From Psychrobacter glacincola (lineage in GTDB: Bacteria > Pseudomonadota > Gammaproteobacteria > Pseudomonadales > Moraxellaceae): DNA of 64,000 nt. The stretch is taken from assembly GCA_001411745.2 (NCBI GenBank), contig LIQB01000007.1, forward strand, positions 1 through 64,000. Reading direction: 5' to 3'. Both the position numbers and the translations under genes were made by a program. The notes beneath the pieces are model-generated. The model saw only the letters and a list, made by a program, of their open reading frames with translations. It did no database searches and was not told the origin of the DNA. Numbering within the stretch: the first letter of the stretch is position 1; every line of letters begins with the position of its first letter. Positions 2,119 through 63,513 of this stretch are shown here, piece by piece.

Positions 2119-3730
<1,612 letters not shown>

Positions 3731-6700
3731 GTGATATCAGCACCGCTTATTGAGTATTTAAAAAAGGGAATATTTACCCTCCTTGGGTTAATACTGGCCG
3801 TTTATCTATTTGTCATTTTGATGACATATACCAGTAACGATCCTAGTTGGTCGCACATCAGTAGCGATATGACCACGATTAATAATGTAGGCGGTGAATC
3901 GGGTGCTTGGTTATCTGACTTGCTTTATAGCTTCTTTGGTTTTGGTGCATGGTGGCTGCTGGCGTTTGTGGTTTATGAGTCTATCCTTATTTGGTGGGAC
4001 AACAAGCCAACGTTTTGGCTGATGCGAGTGGTTGCTTATGTGTTTTTATTATTAAGTGCCAGTGCTTTGTTTGCACAATTGGTGGCGTTAGTACAGCAAT
4101 TGACCAATCCAGGAACGCTAGGGCTGGAAAGCGTGGCTGGTGGCATTATTGGGTTTGAATTACAGGCGCGTTTGGCACAGCTTTTATCGCAGTGGGGGAG
4201 TGTGATTTTCTTGACGGCATTCGTCATTATTACCGCGACCTTTGCCTTTAATATTCATTGGCTAGCGATTTATGAGAAGGTTAAGGCGCTATCGTGGCTT
4301 GGCTCAGGGGTGAAGCGTCAGGGTAGAATGCATGATAGCGTGTCAACCACGCCAGAAAATATCAATGCCAAGCAAAATGATGAAAGTATAGCCAACAGTA
4401 ACGCGAAAAAAGACGCAGCCGATCACGAGCAGTTACCACTTGAGTTGCAAGTTGCTGGCAATGCTCAAGCCGTAGACAACAGTGGTCGGTTCAGCAATGT
4501 GTTGTCAGAGTTCTTGGCAACGTCAGGGTTGGCTGAGAGCGTTAAAGCTTCTGTAGTTGCCGCAACACAAGCGGCGATGCCTAATTCAGCTGCTAAATCT
4601 AGTCGTGAGAATAGTGAGCCTGTCCCTGTCTCAGTAGAGACACCTAGCAGTACTGTTCAAAATCTAGCAACTCATACGAATACATCGACGCCGTTAAGTC
4701 CTGCCATGACTGCTATCCGTAAAGTCGAGCCAAGCTTTGCTTGGAATGACGCCAATACTGTCGATGACTTATTAGCCAGCGAACAAATGGCTTATCACGC
4801 TAATGATATGAACACTTCTGATTCAGCCACTACTACTTCTGTATATGCTGATAGCAATACTGAGTCGTTAGAGACAGCGGTGCTAGACTCTACAGCGATA
4901 TCAGCCGTAGAGATGTCCGAAGCTCAACCAACAGAGAACTTGCCGTCAACAGCTCAGCCATCAATAAATGAGCTAGTATACGGTGAGACGGCTGACAAAA
5001 CGGATAATGAGCTTGAATCGTTTGAGTTAGAGGATAAAGTGGAGGCCGTTGATATACTGGCCGATGCATGGTTGGCAGAGCATGCGGATGTCTTAACATC
5101 TACAGCTATGCAGCCTGTAGAAACAGGGCAACCTACAGGAACAGTGCAAGCAGCCAATATGACTGAGCTGCCCAGACAAGCAGCAGTCACCGCGCCTGCG
5201 ACAGACTCATCTAATAGCGAAATGGACGACTTTACTGATGAATGGTTTGATGAAGAGCCTGAACTGTCAGAGGATTCTGAGCCTTCTTCTGTATCTAATG
5301 AAGCGAGTGTCGCCAAAGCAGTAGACGTGGTTGAACCAGTTGCGTCAGTCGCTGATATGACGCCGACCAATACGCCACCGTCTAATCCTAAACTGCCGCC
5401 TACGGTAGAAACCCGCGTCACAGCATCAGCTATTGAACCAATGGTTGCGCCTAAACCAACGGTAAGTTTTGCGGTACCTGAGGGCGATAGTAGCAATCAT
5501 ATCACTGACATGATGCCAGAGGATGATAGCGCTGAGGATGTGAATGCGCCCGTTATGCCAGATATTAGTGATGATGCCGCCTTCAGTCAAAAATCACGCT
5601 CGATGCAAACGGCTGCCTATCGCAGTAGCCTAACGCCTATTCCAGAGATTTCTATTTTGGATAAGCCAGACCCTGATCGTAAGCCCAGTTATACCGTCGC
5701 CGAGCTTGAGCAATTATCAGAGTTACTAGAGATTAAATTACAAGAATTTAATGTAAAAGCAAATGTGGTCAACGCCATTCCGGGTCCTGTTGTTACCCGC
5801 TTTGAAGTGGAGCTTGCTGCTGGTGTAAAAGCCAGTAAGGTTACCGGTATTTCACGTGATTTGGCGCGCTCGCTATCGATGGCGTCTTTGCGTGTGGTTG
5901 AAGTCATCCCGGGTAAGCCGTATATCGGTATCGAAGTACCGAATAAGCAGCGCGAAATGGTACGTTTGATTGAGCTACTGAATACCGAAAAATTCCAAGA
6001 TCCCAAGGCTCAAATCAGCATGGCGATGGGTAAGGACATCGGTGGTAATGCCATCATTACTGACCTTGCGCGCGCGCCGCATATGTTGGTTGCTGGTACT
6101 ACAGGTTCGGGTAAATCGGTATTGGTCAACTCGATGTTACTATCGATGCTACTCAAATATACGCCAAATGAGCTGCGTCTCATCTTGATTGATCCAAAGC
6201 AGCTCGAGCTTGCCAACTATAATGATATTCCGCATCTGTTAACACCAGTCGTCACCGATATGACTGAAGCGGCCAGTGCTTTGTCATGGTGCGTGGCAGA
6301 GATGGAACGTCGCTATCAACTGATGAGTTTACTCAAAGTGCGTAAGCTTAATGAGTTTAATAAAAAGGTCATTGCTGCTGAAAAATCGGGCAATCCGATG
6401 CTTGATCCTTTGTGGCGACCTAATGACAGCGTGAGTATCAGCCAAGCACCGAAGCTAAAAACTTTGCCGATGATTGTCATTGTCGCGGATGAGTTTGCCG
6501 ATATGATTATGCAGGTTGGTAAACAAGCCGAAGAGCTTATCACCCGCTTGGCACAAAAATCACGCGCAGCAGGGATTCATTTAATGCTTGCTACCCAGCG
6601 TCCGTCGGTCGATGTCATTACTGGTCTGATTAAAGCCAATATTCCCGTGCGGGCGGCACTACGAGTGAACTCAAAAGTAGATTCGCGGACGATTCTGGAC

Positions 6701-8958: not shown

Positions 8959-9852
8959 TTAATCAAATCGATAAATATCCATGCCCAAGCTATGATGCGC
9001 CATGCTTTGATGGACAACTGAGACACGCTGACCTGTACCTAAGGCAAAAAACAATGGCAACAGATGCTCGTCACTCGGATGAATATCTTTATAGTCAGGA
9101 TATTGCTGCCAATCTAAAGCACTAGGAATGTCTGTTTTGAGCTGTTGTAGCAGCCATTGCTTAAATGCTTTAGCCGTTTGGTCAACACTATCTGCTTGCC
9201 AGCGTAATGCTTGCAGATTATGGGTAATGTTACCTGAACCAATGATCAGTATTTGCTCTTCACGTAGGCGCGCTAGCTGCGCACCCAATTGATAACAGGC
9301 GATACTGTCATAATGCTGCGGTAGAGAAACCTGTACGATAGGTATCTCAGCCTCTGGATATAAGTGCCTGAGCGGTGCCCACACCCCATGATCGCAAGCC
9401 CGCACCGGATTAACACTACAAGTAATACCGCGTGCAGTGAGCTGCTGGGCAAGGGATTCAGCAAGTGCTGGCTGACCAGTTGCAGGGTATTGAAGCTCAT
9501 ATAGCTCAGGTGGAAAACCTGAAAAATCGTGCCAAGTCTTAGGTTGCGGATTACTGCTCATTTCGAGTTTGGCGGATTGCCAATGCGCTGACATAATCAG
9601 GATGGCACGTGGCTTTGGTAAGTTTTGCCCAATACGTGCCAGTGCACTGGTCGTGGCTGATTGCTCAATGGCAAGCGTGGGTGCGCCATGCGAGATAAAC
9701 AATGCTGGTAGCTTAGCTACATTTGACCCTAAAGCAGATACATCTGTCCAAACGCCAGTCGCTGTAATAGGCGTTGGCGAATGAGAGTACGAGTCATCAA
9801 GCTGATGAATTGAATGAGGTGTGTTAGGTGTCGCATGTTTTGGATATTTCAT
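8959..9852 (-). CDS. ygiD: DODA-type extradiol dioxygenase, YgiD-like
   Basis: A cytoplasmic metal-dependent ring-opening dioxygenase related to plant DOPA 4,5-dioxygenase and E. coli YgiD. The 297-residue protein shows LPALFISHGAPTLAIE, the PRAILIMSAHW motif, CDHGVWAPLRHLYP, and the IIGSGNITHNL segment; the His residues of these motifs are the metal ligands in the family. The N-terminal ~48 residues precede the conserved core and are unlike it, so the true start could be further in. The physiological substrate is unknown. Not in an evident operon. Confidence 0.85.
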   Translation of the reverse strand: MKYPKHATPNTPHSIHQLDDSYSHSPTPITATGVWTDVSALGSNVAKLPALFISHGAPTLAIEQSATTSALARIGQNLPKPRAILIMSAHWQSAKLEMSSNPQPKTWHDFSGFPPELYELQYPATGQPALAESLAQQLTARGITCSVNPVRACDHGVWAPLRHLYPEAEIPIVQVSLPQHYDSIACYQLGAQLARLREEQILIIGSGNITHNLQALRWQADSVDQTAKAFKQWLLQQLKTDIPSALDWQQYPDYKDIHPSDEHLLPLFFALGTGQRVSVVHQSMAHHSLGMDIYRFD

Positions 9853-9967
9853 GTAGCGTTTATTAGGGCGCTCAGTGGTTTTTCAATCCTTTTTATCATT
9901 GATGTTGTTGCCCATAAACTATCAGCACAAAATATTAGCACAGAGTACGGCAGTGTTTAATGACTGC

Positions 9968-10456
9968 TTAATTACCACGATGATAAGGATGATTGTTGTT
10001 GATACTCATCGCGCGATACAATTGTTCCATTAGCACAACACGTACCAGCGGATGCGGTAATGTCAGCGCTGATAGTGACAATTTTACATCAGCTTTGGCT
10101 AATACTTCTGGCGATACGCCGTCTGCACCACCGATCACCAGTGCAATATCATCGCCTTGCTGCATGCCATCAGCTAATTTATCAGCCAGCCCTTCTGTGG
10201 AAATCATTTTACCTTTGACATCCAATACCCATAGTTGCTCACGCCCTGAGGCATTATGAGCGGCTAGTATTGACTGTCCTTCTTGCTCACGGTATTGTGC
10301 CAAATTGGCATCAGACGGGTTTTTTGCACGCTTTGCGGCAGCAATTTCCACGATTTCTGTACTGAGCATAGGTTGGATACGCTTAAAATACTCATCGAAC
10401 CCCGTCTGTACCCATTTAGGCATTTTATTACCGACGGTTAAAATCCTTACTTTCAT
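9968..10456 (-). CDS. rlmH: 23S rRNA pseudouridine1915 N3-methyltransferase
   Basis: RlmH is a SPOUT methyltransferase that modifies pseudouridine 1915 in helix 69 of 23S rRNA using S-adenosylmethionine. The conserved features are MKVRILTVGNKMPKWVQTGF, YFKRI, the knot segments LWVLDVKGK and LVIGGADGVSPEV, and the C-terminal LPHPLVRVVLMEQLYRAMSINNNHPYHRG. The start used is the ATG at 10456, because that N-terminus aligns with the E. coli protein. An upstream in-frame ATG at 10483 would add nine residues. About 162 residues, near the usual 155. Confidence 0.95.
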   Translation of the reverse strand: MKVRILTVGNKMPKWVQTGFDEYFKRIQPMLSTEIVEIAAAKRAKNPSDANLAQYREQEGQSILAAHNASGREQLWVLDVKGKMISTEGLADKLADGMQQGDDIALVIGGADGVSPEVLAKADVKLSLSALTLPHPLVRVVLMEQLYRAMSINNNHPYHRGN

Positions 10457-10587
10457 AGCCAGTACCACTTTAATTTTAGTCATTAGTAAAATATAACAAA
10501 AGAATTCTACGCTTAAGTGAATGTAACAAACAACCTTTTTACCCTGTCGTTTTTGATGATTTACTAATCTTGGATAAACAATAGGTC

Positions 10588-11136
10588 TTACATCAAGGGC
10601 TGTATGGTTTGTGAGACAGTATCTTCTGTATTTTGGTCATTATCGCTGGCATCAGTTGAGCTGGGTTTTGGAATGATAGTAATCTTGGCATCAGACTCAA
10701 AAACGATGGCTTCAACATCATCGAAACTATGCACTCCTTCAGAGCGCATCGCACATTCAATCTCTTGACGAGTCAGCCGCTCAGCGCGCATGGCATCTGG
10801 CAAAAACTGCCCTTGATAGAAAACAATACGCGGTTCTGACAAAATAAAACTGCTAAATTGCGGTGAGATAGAAGCGTATTTGGTGACTAAAAACTGCAAT
10901 AGATAAAGTACTAAAATCGATGAAACCCCTTCGACAAAGGGAATGTCTTTGAGCAGAATAGTACTGGCACCAAGTGAACCGATCATCACGGTGACGATCC
11001 AATCAAAATTATTGAGCTGTGAGGTGGAGCGTTTACCTGAGACTTTAGTCACCAGTACGATCAACAAATAAACCATGACAGTCGTCAAAACGATGCGTCC
11101 AAGCTTGTCTATATTGTCAAAAAAAACCATGTCCAT
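10588..11136 (-). CDS. YetF/YcaP-like DUF421 membrane protein
   Basis: A 182-residue inner-membrane protein with three hydrophobic segments (about 14-30, 49-64, 68-86), then a soluble DUF421 domain. The region from SISPQFSSFILSEPRIVFYQGQF through RLTRQEIECAMRSEG and FDDVEAIVFESDAKITIIPK is diagnostic of the YetF family. AGGAG lies about 9 bases before the ATG. The role of the family is poorly known. It appears monocistronic. Confidence 0.85.
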   Translation of the reverse strand: MDMVFFDNIDKLGRIVLTTVMVYLLIVLVTKVSGKRSTSQLNNFDWIVTVMIGSLGASTILLKDIPFVEGVSSILVLYLLQFLVTKYASISPQFSSFILSEPRIVFYQGQFLPDAMRAERLTRQEIECAMRSEGVHSFDDVEAIVFESDAKITIIPKPSSTDASDNDQNTEDTVSQTIQPLM

Positions 11137-56172: not shown

Positions 56173-56846
56173 GCGAGTGTTATAAGCAAAATGCCTATCA
56201 TATAAGAAAACTGTCTATCAATAGACGAGCACGCACGGCGAAATCCGCAAATATTTTGAGCACGGAGTTGATAGATATTCAAGATTTAGTGTAATGCTAA
56301 GGAAGGATGACACAAATATTGTAGATACAATGATTGGTGCGCTCGGCGGGAGTCAATCATATCGTCGTAAACCTTGTCATATAGGGTATGTGGTTTTTCG
56401 ATAAATAGTTTTAACAACAAATTTAACAACATCTGACTACTGCTATTTCTATTTGAGTAAATACATCTATAAACAAGCAAAAAGCACGGCGTTTTTAACC
56501 GTTGGGCTTTCTTTTATTCACACCTAATCTCGGTAGGAGTAAATCCTAAATGGATTTTAACAGGTATTCAAGTGAAATAATCTTATGTGGTTACCCTCCA
56601 TCATGATGATGAACGTATGAGATTGGAAGGTGGACATAACTTCAATTAGGCTAGTCATTCGAAAAATTTAAGTTTTTGCTGGCGAGAAACGTATCTTGAT
56701 TAAACTTTGAATTTAGTGGGGTTCTTCGTCATACGCTTATCTAGCGTTCTCTGGTATGCACAAAAACTTTAAATATTAATTCTAAACAGTTGCCGAAAAG
56801 TTACCAATCGTTTACAGTTGGGTAAATATTACCCTGGTGATTGGTC
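56173..56846. other. Intergenic region at the left edge of the island
   Basis: About 670 bases without a supported gene. It contains the inverted repeat GTCTATCAATAGAC (56213-56226), a possible terminator hairpin at 56480-56510, AAATCC/GGATTT arms at 56541-56557, CATCATGATGATGAACG near 56600, and GCTGGCGAG at 56678. The last two resemble parts of the repeats at 60.7-62.9 kb, so this may be a decayed member of the same family. Confidence 0.45.
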
Positions 56847-58060: not shown

Positions 58061-58148
58061 CGTCTTAGCTAAGTCATTGTTGTTTAAAGTTTTTACGGTT
58101 TAATTTCACTAAATATTATATAATAATACAACTTATTGGAAGGTGCTT

Positions 58149-59051
58149 GTGAGCGAGTATGAAATGCCAAAAACTAATTTTACAGTCAAGTATGATGGCG
58201 ATGCTTTAGCAAATCACGAAATGGATGTTGCTATACTTGCTCCTGCCTTAATGGGTATGCAAAAAGTATTAGATGCCTTGGTAACAGAGAGTACCGAAGG
58301 TGAATATAGAGCTTCATTAAAAATTAAAGGCAATGCAAAAGCAGGATCGATTGAAATTGAACTTGTTACCCAAGCTATCTCAAACATGAAGTTGCTGAAG
58401 GACATTATTGTAGACGTTTTTTCATACAGAGATGTGGTAGCGCTTGCAACTATTACAACTCTTCTAGTCCCACTTCTGGCTCTTATTAAAAAATTTGGTA
58501 GAAGAAAGCCTACTAAAGTAGAAGATATGGGAGACGGAAATGTTAAGATTTATTTTGACAGTGATATTACTATAGTGAATAACCATGTTTACCATGTCTA
58601 TAATAACTTTGAGGTAAGAGAAGCTGCATACAAAGCTGTTAAACCATTAGAACAAGAAGGTATTGATAGTTTTGTAATTTACGAAAAATCCAAGAAACTA
58701 GTCGAGGTTAATAAAGAGGATGTCAGTAGGTTTGTTCCTCCAAGCGTTGCCGATAGAATGCTTGTGAGTGAAGAGATTACCTTCCTACAGATTGTCACGA
58801 TCAAATTTAATATGAATAATAAATGGCAGTTCACACAGGGCGATTCAGTGATTAATGCTAATATTATAGATGATGATTTTATTGCAAAAGTACGAAATGG
58901 CGTCCCTTTTCAGGATGGGGATATTCTAAAGGTTAAGTTGCAAAAAGAACAATATCAAGAAAAAGGAAAACTAAAAACAAACTATAAAATTCTTGAAGTG
59001 CTAGATCATCAAAAAGCAGCACAACAGCAGCCTTTTGACTTTGATAGCTAA
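58149..59051 (+). CDS. Unrecognised 300-residue accessory protein
   Basis: I do not recognise this family. From GTG 58149 (GGAAGG 5 bases upstream; GTG 58143 and ATG 58164 are alternatives) it gives about 300 residues. Residues 1-90 form an alpha/beta domain (FTVKYDGDALANHEMDVAILAPALMGMQKVLDAL). One strongly hydrophobic segment lies at about 98-116 (VVALATITTLLVPLLALI), followed by a basic patch KKFGRRK. A beta-rich C-terminal half ends with DILKVKLQKEQYQEKGKLKTNYKILEV. It is AT-rich, ends at its own terminator, and lies in the island beside a toxin-antitoxin pair. Confidence 0.7.
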   Translation: MSEYEMPKTNFTVKYDGDALANHEMDVAILAPALMGMQKVLDALVTESTEGEYRASLKIKGNAKAGSIEIELVTQAISNMKLLKDIIVDVFSYRDVVALATITTLLVPLLALIKKFGRRKPTKVEDMGDGNVKIYFDSDITIVNNHVYHVYNNFEVREAAYKAVKPLEQEGIDSFVIYEKSKKLVEVNKEDVSRFVPPSVADRMLVSEEITFLQIVTIKFNMNNKWQFTQGDSVINANIIDDDFIAKVRNGVPFQDGDILKVKLQKEQYQEKGKLKTNYKILEVLDHQKAAQQQPFDFDS

Positions 59052-59256: not shown

Positions 59257-59805
59257 ATGACATCCGCATTAGATATTGCACAATACTTTATTAACCATTC
59301 TTATGGTGGGCAGCTTGATGACGTTACTAATCTTAAGCTACAAAAATTACTTTATTATGCACAAGGATATAACCTAGCATTGTATGGTGAACCACTATTC
59401 AATGAAGATATTATGAATTGGGATCACGGTACTGTTGTGCCCTGCATATATCATGAATTTAAACGTTTTGGAAACCAAATCATACAACCAACTCCTAATT
59501 TCGATATGGAAAAGTTCTCACAACAAATTAAGAGTGTTCTAGAGTTCGTATGCCGCGACTATGCTAAATATTCTGGCTGGAAATTGCGAGAAATGACACA
59601 TAATGAAAGTCCATGGAAAAATACACAGCGAGACGAAGTGATTACGAAAGATAGTATTGAAACGTTCTTTACTACTAAATTAAATGGTGAGAAATTTAAT
59701 TTTGATTTAGACTGTATGGAACAGATGTTAGACACTGAGTTTGTTGAAATGCCAAATAACATTACAACCTTAGCACAATTTGATAAGTGGTTAGCAGAGG
59801 GTTAA
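59257..59805 (+). CDS. Panacea-domain (DUF4065, SocA-like) antitoxin
   Basis: A 182-residue protein with a Panacea domain, an antitoxin domain known to pair with many unrelated toxins. Hallmarks: ALDIAQYFINHSYGG, DDVTNLKLQKLLYYAQGYNLALYGEPLFNEDIMNWDHGTVVPCIYHEFKRFG (about 20-75), and the later TLAQFDKWL. An extra ~80-residue helical part between 90 and 170 may be toxin-specific. AAGGAGAG precedes the ATG. The toxin gene starts 3 bases after its stop. Confidence 0.88.
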   Translation: MTSALDIAQYFINHSYGGQLDDVTNLKLQKLLYYAQGYNLALYGEPLFNEDIMNWDHGTVVPCIYHEFKRFGNQIIQPTPNFDMEKFSQQIKSVLEFVCRDYAKYSGWKLREMTHNESPWKNTQRDEVITKDSIETFFTTKLNGEKFNFDLDCMEQMLDTEFVEMPNNITTLAQFDKWLAEG

Positions 59806-59808
59806 TAA

Positions 59809-60186
59809 GTGAAGGTGACGTTTGGTAGAAAGATCAAGAGCCATATGCTCAAATATTCTGAGCAAGATAGACAAAAAATACTAAACTTTGCTATTCATGT
59901 ACAAGAACATGGTCTTGAAATATTGCCAGGAAAGAATAAGCGTTCTGATGGGTTTTCTAATGACGATCCTCTCTTTTCTAGTAAGATGGCACTGGTAAAA
60001 AAGTATAACCTTTGGCACTATCATATAGGCATACCTTCTTATACAAACTCTTTCTACGGTGATTATAAAACCTCAGAATATATACTGCACTATATTAGAG
60101 GCGAGGATTACATTGAAATTGTTGATTTGGGTAGACATCCACCATTTAGTTTGCCTTCACATGACTGCTTAGAAGAACCGCCATAA
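59809..60186 (+). CDS. Putative toxin of the Panacea pair (RelE/ParE-like)
   Basis: A 125-residue protein with a GTG start, 3 bases after the antitoxin. The N-terminal helices (KIKSHMLKYSEQDRQKILNFAIHVQEHG) are followed by strands VKKYNLWHYHIGIPSY and SEYILHYIRGEDYIEIVDLGRHPPF, an order that resembles RelE/ParE/HigB-type toxins. This is inferred from layout, not from a confirmed match. Its stop codon lies inside its terminator hairpin. Confidence 0.7.
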   Translation: MKVTFGRKIKSHMLKYSEQDRQKILNFAIHVQEHGLEILPGKNKRSDGFSNDDPLFSSKMALVKKYNLWHYHIGIPSYTNSFYGDYKTSEYILHYIRGEDYIEIVDLGRHPPFSLPSHDCLEEPP

Positions 60187-60399: not shown

Positions 60400-60705
60400 A
60401 GGCTGCTACCTTAATAATCGAATAAAGGAAACTCGACCATAGCACTGCAAATCACCTCTATCAACAATAATTTAACTTATGTTTAGTCGGTTCTTCTGTT
60501 CTAACTAATTTGCTGGCAAGAATACCGCTCGACATGATGTCGAACCCTACTATCCAAAATTGGACAGTGCTATCAACTCGCCAGCACTGCTCAATTTTGA
60601 GCACACCCTATCAGCTCCCAACATCCTCAATCTGAAGAAGTGTAAAATCATTCACACTTATGGTGAATGCTATCGATTAGCAATCCCTGCCCAACTTTGG
60701 ACAGG

Positions 60706-60734
60706 GGTCTCCTTAATTTGAGGAGACCTTTTTT
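60706..60734 (+). terminator. Terminator-like hairpin in the repeat region, copy 1
   Basis: Arms GGTCTCCT and AGGAGACC with an AT loop, then T6. The same 23 bases recur at 62500-62522 without the T run, and a decayed version is at 61367-61388. Each follows directly on a CAAnnTTG-type palindrome through the bases CAGGGG. Confidence 0.7.
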
Positions 60735-60910
60735 ATGACCAATCGATAATGCAATGTTGACCGTTCATCATCATCATCATGAACGTTATAAAATAGATAC
60801 TCACGAATAACAGCGGTCGTTAGTGTGCTGGCAAGTATAGATAATGAGTGGTTGGCTGCCGCTTTAGGTATTCACTGTTGGGTTGTAAAATCGATAAGAC
60901 GTGCCTTCTG
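60729..60910. repeat. Long degenerate direct repeat R1, copy 1
   Basis: Matches 62818-62997 over about 180 bases with small gaps. Shared blocks are CCAATCGATA, CGTTCATCATCATnATGAACG, TATAAAATA, CGTTAGTGTG(C/T)TGGCAAG, TAATGAGTG, TTTAGGTATTCA, GGGTTGTAAA and CGTGC(C/T)TTCTG. Confidence 0.8.
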
Positions 60911-61282
60911 ACTTAATGGCGATGCATCTTCAGGATTTTAAATCTAAGCAAAATTGACAGCCCAACTTTGGGCAATGGCAATAACCCATCGTAATTATCC
61001 AACCCCCAGTGGGGAATAGACTTAATCAAGATGTGAGCAAATCTGCACACATCTATTTACCTATGCGTCACGCTACCCCCATTGGAAGAAACGTCTTCTG
61101 AATCATAACTGTTCTAAGTAACTGATTCTTCCTAACTTCCGCCATTGACGGGAGTTTGATTACAACCGCCAGTGACGGTTAGAGCGACTCATTCAGAACT
61201 TCAAATTCTGGATTGTTAAGGGTATGCTGATTTTTAGCACACCCTGTAGTCCCCAGTCCCCAATGCTGATTGGACCTATTCA

Positions 61283-61390
61283 TTTGATATTTAAAATGCG
61301 GAATAGAACGCTGGCAAGTTGATATTGGATAAGAGGCTTTTACTTGCCATGCTCAAAAGTGAGCAGGGGTCTCTTCGATTTTAGAGATTT
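61283..61390. repeat. Degenerate direct repeat R2, copy 1
   Basis: Aligns with 62402-62523: ATTTnAAATGCGnAAT, GCTGGCAnGT, a Cys/Thr-free AT stretch, then a palindrome, CAGGGGTCTC and a second hairpin. The end of a further copy is at 60685-60728. Confidence 0.7.
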
Positions 61391-61636
61391 ATAAGTCATT
61401 GATTCCATTGCTAACGCAAAATTGCATTGGCTATGCAAGGTTATGTTTGAATAAACGCATTCTGTTCTAATATGTCAACAAAACCTTCCAACTCTTTGGA
61501 TTAGCTATCAGTATAAGACCTCCTCAAAACTTAGGAAGGCATCATCTGCAGCTATGATAGATAACCCACGTTAGGGTTAATACAAAAGCCTTCATTGGTT
61601 TAGTGGCTGTGGAGATTTGAGCCATTGGCGTTAATT

Positions 61637-61712
61637 CAGCGATACAGCGGGCTGTAGTCGCTATAGGTATTCGTACCTAGTCCGTAAACCCCGTAGTCCG
61701 TGCCTTCTTGGG
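61637..61712. repeat. Partial R1 copy with a UUCG-type hairpin
   Basis: Contains hairpin AGCGA.ACAG/CTGT..TCGCT (61637-61662) and TAGGTA-TTCG-TACCTA (61664-61679), whose TTCG loop would be a very stable tetraloop in RNA. It is followed by GTAAACCCCGTAGTCCGTGCCTTCT in part identical to the R1 tail at 62970-62994. Confidence 0.75.
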
Positions 61713-61754
61713 AGTACTATTTTTCAGCACACACTTATATCTTAACTTCCACCA

Positions 61755-61955
61755 ATGACGGAAGTTAAGTTAAATCAAGCACTTAGACCAAATAGCAAAA
61801 CCATGGTCTACGTTTTCTCAGGTGAGCAGGGTAAACGAGACAGCTTTGTTGTCGTTGCTCAGTTGTCACCAGAATTTACAGGCGCGTTGGTTGATCGCTG
61901 GCAGGAGCTAGAACAGCAAGTATCGGCCAGTAGTCCGGTCACGCCAGCGAAGTAA
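61755..61955 (+). pseudogene. Phage Rha/antirepressor-like remnant
   Basis: A 66-codon frame whose stretch SFVVVAQLSPEFTGALVDRWQELEQQ resembles the N-terminal domain end of phage Rha/antirepressor proteins (a ...DRWQELE motif). The rest of such a protein is missing, and no ribosome binding site precedes the ATG, which lies in the loop of the 61741-61769 hairpin. Most likely a fragment; a short functional protein is possible. Confidence 0.5.
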
Positions 61956-62096
61956 TTTACGTTTTCCATATCAATGACTTGGTATTAGATTTTCAATCTG
62001 AGGCTTACTCAATGATTAAAGCTTAAGGACGTCCCCAAAGTTGGGGACATCTATTCATTTATGATGGTACGTTTTAGCTATTGGTATAAATAGTAA

Positions 62097-62303
62097 TCAT
62101 CGCTTTGGCAACTTGTATTCTATTTCTGGATTCGCATCAATGCCGATAATAGTATCGATTTTAACCCTCAGCCACTTATTTGGTTTGCCTGGTAAGTCTG
62201 GTTCCGGAAGGAAGCCAGATTCGCGTTTACGATATATGGTCATATCAGACTTCCATCCAAACATTTCTTTTATATCTGCCGTCGTGTAGTAAATGCTTGT
62301 CAT
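62097..62303 (-). CDS. AlpA-like small HTH regulator
   Basis: A 68-residue protein with a MerR/excisionase-type helix-turn-helix: YYTTADIKEMFGWKSDMTIYRKRESGFLPEPDLPGKPNKWL. This layout is seen in AlpA-type regulators and excisionases carried by prophages, satellites and integrative elements. AGGAG lies 8 bases before the ATG. It stands alone in the hairpin-rich region, between palindromes at 62031 and 62483, and may bind them; this is a guess. Confidence 0.75.
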   Translation of the reverse strand: MTSIYYTTADIKEMFGWKSDMTIYRKRESGFLPEPDLPGKPNKWLRVKIDTIIGIDANPEIEYKLPKR

Positions 62304-62401
62304 AAAAACAACTCCTATATCACCTTAACTACAATCTATTGTTGATCACGTACATTTAATATATGGATGACTGGTACTAATTGAGGGTATCAGAATCTTG
62401 G

Positions 62402-62523
62402 TGGTATTTGAAATGCGAAATTGGGTGCTGGCAGGTCAACATTAAATAGAAAGCTCTGTAAGTTTTTGACTTCAATAGGCATGCCCAAAGTTGGGCAGGG
62501 GTCTCCTTAATTTGAGGAGACCT
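62402..62523. repeat. Degenerate direct repeat R2, copy 2
   Basis: Homologous to 61283-61390. It ends with palindrome GCCCAAAGTTGGGC, CAGGGG and the GGTCTCC/GGAGACC hairpin, whose 23 bases are identical to those at 60706-60728. Confidence 0.75.
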
Positions 62524-62817
62524 AGCATCCAAGTTAGTAAAAAAAGTCTCAGGCTTAAGCATATCTATTAAGAGCTATTAGACCCAATAAGGAATCCCCA
62601 AACTTGGGGAATGGTAAATTTCGCCAAGCCATGGCGATAATCAATGTGTTTGCAGGATTGAGAAAACCTTATCAATATTCACTGTATCGATGAAATCGCT
62701 TACTATAGGCGCAAGATGGGTAATCCAAATTTGGATTATTAGCAATATCAGCCACTTAGAAATAAATCGTGTATAAATGCACACTATTGGGTGTCCTCAA
62801 TTTTGAGGATATCTTCT

Positions 62818-62997
62818 TTTTACGGCCAATCGATAGTGCAGTGCTAAGCGTTCATCATCATGATGAACGCTATAAAATACACAGTCACAAATCACAGCGA
62901 TCGTTAGTGTGTTGGCAAGCATAGGTAATGAGTGATTAAGTTGTCTCTTTAGGTATTCAACTCAGGGTTGTAAACCCCGTAGTCCGTGCTTTCTGGT
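62818..62997. repeat. Long degenerate direct repeat R1, copy 2
   Basis: Second copy of 60729-60910. Here the internal inverted repeat is perfect (11-bp arms AGCGTTCATCA at 62847), and the tail reads GGGTTGTAAACCCCGTAGTCCG. Confidence 0.8.
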
Positions 62998-63285
62998 GCA
63001 ATACTTATCACTAGCCATGAAGGCGAGCCTCTCAAACTAAAACAGTTAAAACGTCGCTTAGCTTTGTAGTGGTTTCGTCCACACAGGCGATAAGGTAAGT
63101 AATACAGTTTTGTATAATGCGTAATAGTAAGCACCGATCAATAGTGAGAAAATAGGTAAATCATTTTTGAATTATCATTAGTATCAGGCGCTTAGAAGTT
63201 AGGGTGTACCAAATGGTACGCCCAAGTGCTGTTTATAATAATATTAGATAAATTGATTTTGAGGAGTGTAAAGCTTTTAACGCTT

Positions 63286-63319
63286 CTAATAGGGTGTTAA
63301 CTTCTTTACACCCTATTAG
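63286..63319. repeat. Hairpin with 12-bp perfect stem
   Basis: CTAATAGGGTGT pairs with ACACCCTATTAG around a ten-base loop. Outer bases GCTT/AGAAG can extend it imperfectly. No T run follows, so it is not a standard terminator. Confidence 0.8.
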
Positions 63320-63513
63320 GCTTAGAAGTGAGTCTATCTATTTAATATTATTTGAGTCTGTGGCATATATTTGTGGAATGTTGATACCCGATACTCTTAT
63401 GATAGAAGTTTCAAGTTTAGTTATTATCCACAATTGAAGTATGTTTGTTCGCGTTATTAGAGCGAGATAAAACAGATATAAGCAAAGATAGTTAATCATT
63501 AACAAGGAGAGCG

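Follow-up and report, generated by a model that had tools for sequence, protein, structure and literature searches.

A palindrome-rich prophage tract in Psychrobacter as a possible polyvalent operator array sharing sites with phage antirepressor genes

Several described systems place operator-like or structured elements in phage genomes. Roi of HK022 reportedly recognizes a site within roi itself (work by Clerget and Boccard in 1996), and an integration host factor (IHF) site lies near this Roi-type intragenic operator. Stoperators and other multi-operator sets, such as those of mycobacteriophage L5 and the c1 operators of P1, follow one consensus for the phage's own repressor. Clustered regularly interspaced short palindromic repeat (CRISPR) arrays are variable between conserved flanks and hold elements matching other phages, and the large phage RNAs of the GOLLD/ROOL type are long, structured, non-coding stretches. 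Here, we analyze a tract dense in palindromes at 60.5-63.3 kb of a 64,000-nt stretch (hereafter, the window) that forms the start of a 187-kb contig of Psychrobacter glacincola, the tract being located inside a 29.3-kb prophage. It shares traits with each of these systems and departs from all of them. Like stoperators, it combines many operator-like sites in one phage genome but, rather than one consensus, it contains several families with different cores and arms; it resembles CRISPR arrays in its variability between conserved flanks and in elements matching other phages, whereas constant repeats and spacing are missing and the elements resemble operators, not spacers; unlike the GOLLD/ROOL RNAs, it has no Rfam match, folds similarly on both strands and consists of elements that recur in coding DNA. 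It is also comparable with HK022 roi, in which we found a palindrome (CTGCATTGCAG; p 0.063 in synonymous-codon shuffles) in the codons of the putative wing of the DNA-binding domain (hereafter, wing codons), as in the gene counterparts of the tract palindromes. However, HK022 has one site in one gene, whereas the tract holds many specificities in non-coding DNA, and five of the six Psychrobacter genomes carrying such arrays have no ANT gene. We hold with high confidence that the tract palindromes are sites of the kind found in antirepressor genes, and give even chances to the view that the tract is a polyvalent operator array with many specificities.

The original prediction, made from the letters of the window, described a gene-poor tract with at least nine CAAnnTTG palindromes whose outer arms differ in sequence yet remain matched. 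At 60530-63319, CAAnnTTG occurs 12 times, against a mean of 1.19 and a maximum of 5 in 500 dinucleotide shuffles, and eight of these copies carry at least two additional complementary outer pairs (shuffle mean 0.08, maximum 2); the ninth (60689-60703) has imperfect outer arms. All outer arms named in the prediction are present, the first reading TC before CAA. The rest of the window (1-60529) contains 26 copies, 2 of them with such complementary arms. Palindromes with arms of at least 6 number 15 in the tract (4.3 ± 2.0, maximum 10, in 500 shuffles), compared with 1-8 (mean 4.2) in 20 control chunks of 2840 nt from window positions 1-56000; those with arms of at least 7 number 7 (1.1, maximum 5) and those with arms of at least 8 number 3 (0.3, maximum 3). 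The excess over shuffled sequence is thus substantial, and no open reading frame (ORF) of 80 aa or more was found in the tract, as the term gene-poor implied. The suspicion that these were not CRISPR repeats also held, as no regular direct repeats with constant sequence and spacing were found in the tract. The CAAnnTTG family is, however, not alone: by reading, the palindromes across the related tracts also include CCnCAA(A/T)TGnGG, with a long form AACTTCC..GGAAGTT, CTATTTTTTAG, TCATnATGA (F4), ATTTCAAAT, GTACC..GGTAC and GGGTGT..ACACCC, and the window tract contains, in addition, a 0.2-kb antirepressor gene remnant.

Related tracts were recovered with a covariance model (R1) of a conserved 120-nt block that, by reading, lies at the cargo end of the tract and has one orientation relative to the cargo in six of six genomes. 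Of 105 genomes from the genus, six gave strong hits: that of the window and G051, G067, G070, G085 and G088. Five of these sequences had served to build the model, which leaves G067 (E 1.9e-9) as the one independent hit. At E <= 1, hits extended to 20 of the 105 genomes, 14 of them weak (E 0.003 to 0.99), and the best weak hit, in G009, is a palindrome inside a roi gene. Among 348 genomes of the family, 11 were hit at E 0.05, namely, the same six and five weak ones from another genus (E 7e-4 to 0.046). A DNA search found partial relatives of the window tract in other genomes of the genus, and in both G067 and G085 a tract of ~0.9 kb occupies the corresponding position, downstream of a shared phage gene. 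Of two further palindrome patterns, a 17-base one allowing 2 mismatches matched 105 of 105 genomes and was uninformative, and the other gave three matches, all outside any array and in unrelated contigs.

Compensation between the arms was assessed across four homologous tracts, G067, G085 and those of the viral contigs L114 and L115, which are 70-89% identical overall, linkers included; the test covered these four and not the whole window tract, of which no full-length relative was found. For stems with arms of at least 6, 1141 ungapped cells were scored, with tract pairs counted in both directions and 122 gapped cells excluded. Of these cells, 901 were unchanged, 79 had changed on both sides and still paired, 18 had changed on both sides without pairing and 143 had changed on one side; the 79 paired double changes compare with ~10 expected were the arms independent. 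The proposed compensation of the arms thus survived a comparison in which the arms could have drifted without pairing. The reading of paired change as a sign of a structured RNA or of single-strand origin DNA found no support: a dimeric protein also needs two-fold symmetry, so that paired change is in itself no sign of RNA, and the mismatches show no preference for G-T over A-C (48 G-T, 57 A-C and 38 other among the one-sided changes of the four tracts; 5 GT and 4 AC among tract mismatches in a separate count). This absence of a G-U (wobble) preference favours duplex DNA over RNA. Among the options offered at the outset, a set of hairpins recognized by a protein comes nearest, whereas RNA and single-strand origins are not supported.

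What could not be seen from the tract itself is that its palindromes recur in coding sequences, at a narrow codon position of antirepressor genes. A 19-base palindrome pattern had five matches, in the arrays L114 and L115, a Roi-like ORF (L116), an unrelated ORF (L117) and Psymv2, where the match lies inside the roi gene, and a shared-word scan showed that many antirepressor genes contain tract palindromes at a single position, ~130-165 nt into the gene. The genes concerned are of the Roi/Phage_pRha, AntA and Rha types, and the palindromes mostly lie near codons 40-60, within the part coding for the DNA-binding domain. Words of 12 nt from the six tracts, with the remnant in the window masked, were compared with 83 unique Roi-type genes, collected by protein similarity and in a few cases via DNA hits; the 78 genes with an anchor motif were scanned. 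Matches were seen at 224 of the 1170 positions in codons +30 to +34, counted from this motif (191.5 per 1000), compared with 33 per 1000 at +25 to +29, 63 at +35 to +39, 6-9 at +40 to +49 and 0-3.4 in the other bins; 66 of the genes had a tract 12-mer at codons +20 to +45.

A blastn-short search of the six tracts against 138 antirepressor and Rha genes gave the same picture, with 61 distinct places matched, 53 of them at codons 36-66, against summed shuffle means of 0.46 (places per tract, with those at codons 36-66 in parentheses: window 10 (9), G067 13 (12), G085 12 (10), G070 17 (14), G088 7 (7), G051 2 (1)). Repeated without 32 genes that had been picked by an F4 or F5 (ATTTSAAAT) palindrome and that include unrelated genes, the search gave 55 places, 51 at codons 36-66, against summed shuffle means of 0.40 and 0.00-0.17 per tract (window 8 (8), G067 16 (15), G085 10 (9), G070 14 (12), G088 5 (5), G051 2 (2)). 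The longest exact matches at the palindrome comprise 28 nt in the ANT gene L405 (genome G023), 25 nt in L136 (G004) and 24 nt in Psymv2 roi, followed by 22 nt in the AntA gene L404 (G011) and in L135; among the blastn-short matches listed, most are 15-32 nt long, consisting of the palindrome and a short flank. The palindromes and strand-assigned features of the window tract are as follows, with gene counterparts where found; entries without a sign have no strand assigned.

60529-60543: palindrome TCGACATGATGTCGA, immediately before the conserved block and, by eye, F4-like (xCATnATGx')
60551-60670 (+): conserved 120-nt block (model R1, E 7.7e-24) with four palindromes, TCCAAAATTGGA, TGCTCAATTTTGAGCA, the decayed CCTCAATCTGAAG and TTCACACTTATGGTGAA, and common linkers
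60685-60729: CCCTGCCCAACTTTGGACAGGGG followed by GGTCTCCTTAATTTGAGGAGACC; positions 60688-60729 are repeated at 62482-62523 with 93% identity
60960-60973: GCCCAACTTTGGGC, CAAnnTTG family
61132-61161: AACTTCCGCCATTGACGGGAGTT, counterpart in the Roi-type gene L160 (E 0.007)
61350-61370: TGCTCAAAAGTGAGCAGGGGT, weak counterpart in the pRha gene L136 (E 0.36)
61666-61706 (-): GGTATTCGTACCTAGTCCGTAAACCCCGTAGTCCGTGCCTT, counterpart in the ANT gene L405 (G023), codon ~54 (E 1e-12, 28 nt exact)
61744-61955 (+): remnant of a Roi/Phage_pRha antirepressor gene (E 5e-66 to L150)
62031-62048: GTCCCCAAAGTTGGGGAC, of which TCCCCAAAGTTGGGGA is exact in the pRha gene L389, codon 46 (E 0.096)
62121-62306 (-): excisionase-like ORF of 62 aa, with relatives inside the G088 and G070 tracts
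62482-62523: TGCCCAAAGTTGGGCA and GGGGTCTCCTTAATTTGAGGAGACC, counterpart in L136 (E 0.025)
62595-62610: TCCCCAAACTTGGGGA
62721-62738: TAATCCAAATTTGGATTA
62794-62809: TCCTCAATTTTGAGGA
62847-62871: AGCGTTCATCATCATGATGAACGCT, F4 family
62970-62989 (-): GTAAACCCCGTAGTCCGTGC, second L405-type site (E 5e-4)
63200-63223: TAGGGTGTACCAAATGGTACGCCC, counterpart in the AntA gene L404 (G011), codon ~53 (E 1e-4)
63286-63319: CTAATAGGGTGTTAACTTCTTTACACCCTATTAG, counterpart in the AntA gene L121, codon ~53 (E 0.025)

The families sort by type of regulator. CAAnnTTG sites occur in Phage_pRha genes coding for 'GLxKVGEGYYTH' (L385, L389, L396, L403), CCnCAA sites in Roi-type genes ('QPQIED', 'QLPPMTEV', 'QPPMGDG'), and GGGTGT and GTACC sites in the AntA genes L386, L402 and L404; for the CTAAAAAATAG kind, there are look-alikes only, in L392 and L406. 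Of 27 viral places with F4, read by eye, 19 are intergenic, 2 lie in AntA-like genes (L360 and L365, coding for 'GFVIMTNG') and 6 in other ORFs. Among the matches listed for the F5 pattern (at least 121 places in at least 120 stretches), 37 are intergenic and, by reading, ~25 of 121 lie in Rha-type ORFs coding for 'FGxxAFEMR', at codons 47-85; other F5 matches lie in unrelated genes also coding for 'AFEMR'. The long Rha palindrome GGGTCGCATTTSAAATGCGACCC matched 9 stretches in a scan of the genome collection, including, by reading, rha-type ORFs of Magnetococcales and Desulfobulbus genomes (L409, L413), the strand opposite a rha-type ORF in Aromatoleum (L411), an intergenic place (L412) and the G067 tract (L414). 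In another contig (L256:3720-3835 and 4141-4662), two or three Rha-type palindromes precede, by ~0.3 kb, a rha gene whose wing codons hold a perfect palindrome unlike these; similar matches were seen in L267, L316, L326 and L333.

Inside the genes, the palindrome is conserved beyond what codon use accounts for. In 70 Roi-type genes (13 of the 83 unique genes, which have no anchor, were left out), synonymous-codon shuffles gave a significant palindrome in 62 (p < 0.05), 44 of them at p < 0.01. In Psychrobacter, ANT genes were selected on a Pfam domain at the C terminus, and 11 of 24 had a significant palindrome, whereas one control window gave 0 of 23 and a second 1 of 23; the figure for a 'Rha' set (25 of 30) refers to genes that were picked by palindrome and include unrelated ones. 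The arms covary: positions -4/+4 are complementary in 56 of 70 genes (18.7 when shuffled, with four pair types) and -11/+11 in 66 of 70 (25.1), and six pairs (-2, -4, -8, -9, -10 and -11 around a fixed centre) exceed all 2000 shuffles, which ignore relatedness. Mismatches comprise 16 G-T, 34 A-C and 50 other. In genes and tracts alike, therefore, two-fold symmetry is kept through paired, duplex-compatible changes. A place within antirepressor wing codons is a feature of the gene counterparts and not of the tract, which is non-coding apart from the remnant; the tract palindromes would function in the manner of HK022 Roi-type intragenic operators while not being such operators. The palindrome codons may correspond to the first strand of the wing behind the recognition helix, an assignment made with low confidence: the AlphaFold model of the N-terminal domain is poor (predicted local distance difference test of about 50), so that the wing reading draws on secondary structure only, and a search of solved structures returned nothing relevant.

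Arrays of the same kind occur in six IMG/VR contigs (L114, L115, L292, L373, L374 and L381), and the same families, in a mix of their own, form dense arrays in two GC-rich contigs that probably come from other hosts (L262, 1050-2150; L321, 3450-4560); all eight were picked through a match to one tract palindrome, L262 and L321 through F5. In L292 and L374, the flanks are 99.6% (2412 nt) and 98.4% (1818 nt) identical, whereas of the arrays themselves (9089-10816, 1.7 kb, and 2413-4470, 2.1 kb, respectively) only 74 nt (86%) and 189 nt (70%) align, such that nearly identical phages carry different arrays. In similarity searches against named phages and plasmids, all matches listed for the window tract (20 of 59 and 20 of 82 records) fall in the Roi remnant, and the G067, L262 and L321 tracts had no match. 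A further viral contig, picked by protein similarity, encodes a 142-aa ORF of four concatenated wing modules, each with a palindrome, that lies just ahead of a roi gene and runs into its start (L196:576-1004).

The prophage is bounded by a 20-bp direct repeat, the right copy of which starts at 85653 on the same contig, past the end of the window, and is adjoined by a phage-type integrase; a terminase small subunit and a DnaC-like gene lie between the repeats. The cargo to the left of the tract comprises a SNase-like gene, a PDC-S42 candidate and a SocA/Panacea antitoxin-like gene, and an HTH_17 gene lies to the right.

56332-56351: left end repeat of the prophage, 20 bp (GATTGGTGCGCTCGGCGGGA), one of the direct-repeat pair
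58143-59051 (+): candidate defence protein PDC-S42 (E 2e-70)
59257-59805 (+): SocA/Panacea antitoxin-like gene (PF13274, E 3e-22), without PADLOC match
59257-60186 (+): pair formed by this gene and the 125-aa ORF after it, the latter without Pfam match

By its position alone, the 125-aa ORF is a possible toxin partner of the Panacea-like gene. The 62-aa ORF inside the tract has no Pfam match itself, and its relative L013 matches excisionase PHROGs. No tRNA was found in the window. Among ten cargo proteins tried beside arrays (the G070 and G088 neighbours were left out), five matched defence models well, and genes of defence type stand beside four arrays: the window has PDC-S42, G051 IetA and IetS, L114 RmrA and G067 MTase_II. 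The array-carrying prophage of G088 also encodes a KilA-N-like regulator (L049:3622-4167), and short tandem repeats (agctatcaca-type) precede a TPR-like gene that adjoins the tract in L005 (near 1760-1860) and L050 (15996-16316).

By analogy with HK022 Roi, an antirepressor would bind the palindrome in its own gene. Regulators of the Roi/Phage_pRha, AntA and Rha types mostly carry such a palindrome, which is putatively recognized as duplex DNA by the dimeric N-terminal DNA-binding domain of the same protein. As we read it, the prophage tract has gathered a large number of such sites with differing specificities in its non-coding DNA, where they may act on regulators made by other phages in the same cell. 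As a trap, the array would soak up a rival's antirepressor and thereby protect prophage repression; as a sensor, it would let a rival regulator that occupies it switch the neighbouring cargo genes. That the array acts in phage-phage conflict at all seems to us a shade less than evenly balanced. Only tentatively do we propose that temperate phages keep variable operator arrays as a DNA-encoded, protein-read memory of competing phages, with which to trap or sense their regulators. The sites in such a memory would be gained by capture of intragenic operators from the antirepressor or Rha genes of rivals, and matching would follow from each regulator writing its own recognition palindrome into its DNA-binding wing codons.

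A number of observations weigh against an operator array directed at rivals. The window array is of a weaker kind, with 8 places in 2.6 kb, many at E 0.02-0.4, and G051 has only 2. Not every family has its gene: F2 (TGCTATTTTTTAGCA) has no exact counterpart in any antirepressor of the genus (105 genomes) and is therefore matched by resemblance, its 9 places in 8 of 105 genomes comprising 4 in tracts and 5 elsewhere (one in a doubtful 75-aa ORF); once the remnant is set aside, no 12-mer of the six tracts recurs in L406, and no more than a 13-mer in L392. Nor does every gene have its palindrome, which is not significant in 8 of the 70 Roi-type genes and in 13 of the 24 Psychrobacter ANT genes, and positions -7/+7 do not pair (31 of 70, shuffled 33.4). 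By eye, the sites within one array mostly differ, a poor design for a titrating sponge. There is no excess of promoters in the tract (5 found, 9.3 expected), and PADLOC returned nothing for two G085 neighbours, the Panacea gene and one L114 gene, and a weak match for one L046 gene. The arrays of the window (61744-61955) and of G070 include longer pieces of genes, as expected of a graveyard of genes. Finally, since 83 of the 105 genomes of the genus have no ANT gene, its absence from five of the six carriers is unremarkable and no evidence of exclusion; what it does entail is that the sites in those five serve no resident ANT antirepressor. The ANT gene of G067 itself has no 12-mer in common with any tract at the palindrome position.

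The main rival, which we consider unlikely, holds that the tract is a graveyard in which a recombination-prone prophage end collects decaying pieces of antirepressor genes, the palindromes persisting through template-switching self-repair and having no present function. The remnant at 61744-61955 fits this view: it begins at its palindrome AACTTCCACCAATGACGGAAGTT, continues for ~185 nt and is broken, with no start codon and one in-frame stop reported, while intact relatives exist; the longer fragments of G070 and the differing contents of arrays in near-identical phages point the same way. Yet most of the listed matches are palindromes with a short flank and not long gene pieces, the four homologous tracts have stayed similar across their linkers too and show 79 paired double changes, and arrays of the same families recur in the two GC-rich contigs, both of which were picked by their F5 match. 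Distinctly less probable is a cassette store, in which array elements would be gene-conversion donors that swap wing codons and operator in one step. Wing codons and palindrome do change together, and the four-module ORF that overlaps the start of roi in L196 fits such donors, but five of the six Psychrobacter carriers have no ANT gene to convert, and the matching flanks in the tracts are mostly short.

A functional RNA, either a long structured one or an antisense sponge that would pair with antirepressor mRNAs through self-complementary hairpins, appears very unlikely. Antisense control of ant genes occurs in phages, by sar in P22 and c4 in P1, the conserved block keeps one orientation to the cargo, and local folding energies (span 50; 40 shuffles each) lie below those of shuffled sequence in six tracts, with z of -8.2 on the plus and -8.0 on the minus strand for 60471-63340 of the window, -15.6/-13.7 for G067, -11.7/-8.2 for G085, -6.6/-5.7 for G070 and weak values for G088 (-3.5/-2.8) and G051 (-1.8/-2.2). 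The two strands are, however, similarly stable, the mismatches show no G-U preference, and a search of the window against 4227 Rfam families at gathering score gave no match, so that the tract belongs to no known structured RNA family by this measure. We see scarcely any chance that the tract is a terminator cluster insulating the prophage cargo from late transcription. Terminator-like sites number 5, compared with 2.1 ± 1.3 expected, but two of the five overlap, and most tract palindromes have no T-run and hence do not form an array of Rho-independent terminators; the matches, moreover, fall in one codon range of regulator genes.

For an operator array of this kind, we found no description in the open-access literature searched, which lacks most subscription papers. 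A previously unexplained non-coding prophage tract is now linked to a large family of phage regulators. The link suggests a reading rule whereby the operator of an antirepressor could be read from its wing codons; the specificities of many pRha, AntA and Rha proteins would then become testable together. If the array indeed traps or senses the regulators of rivals, it would represent an unrecognized layer of phage-phage conflict beside the known defence genes.

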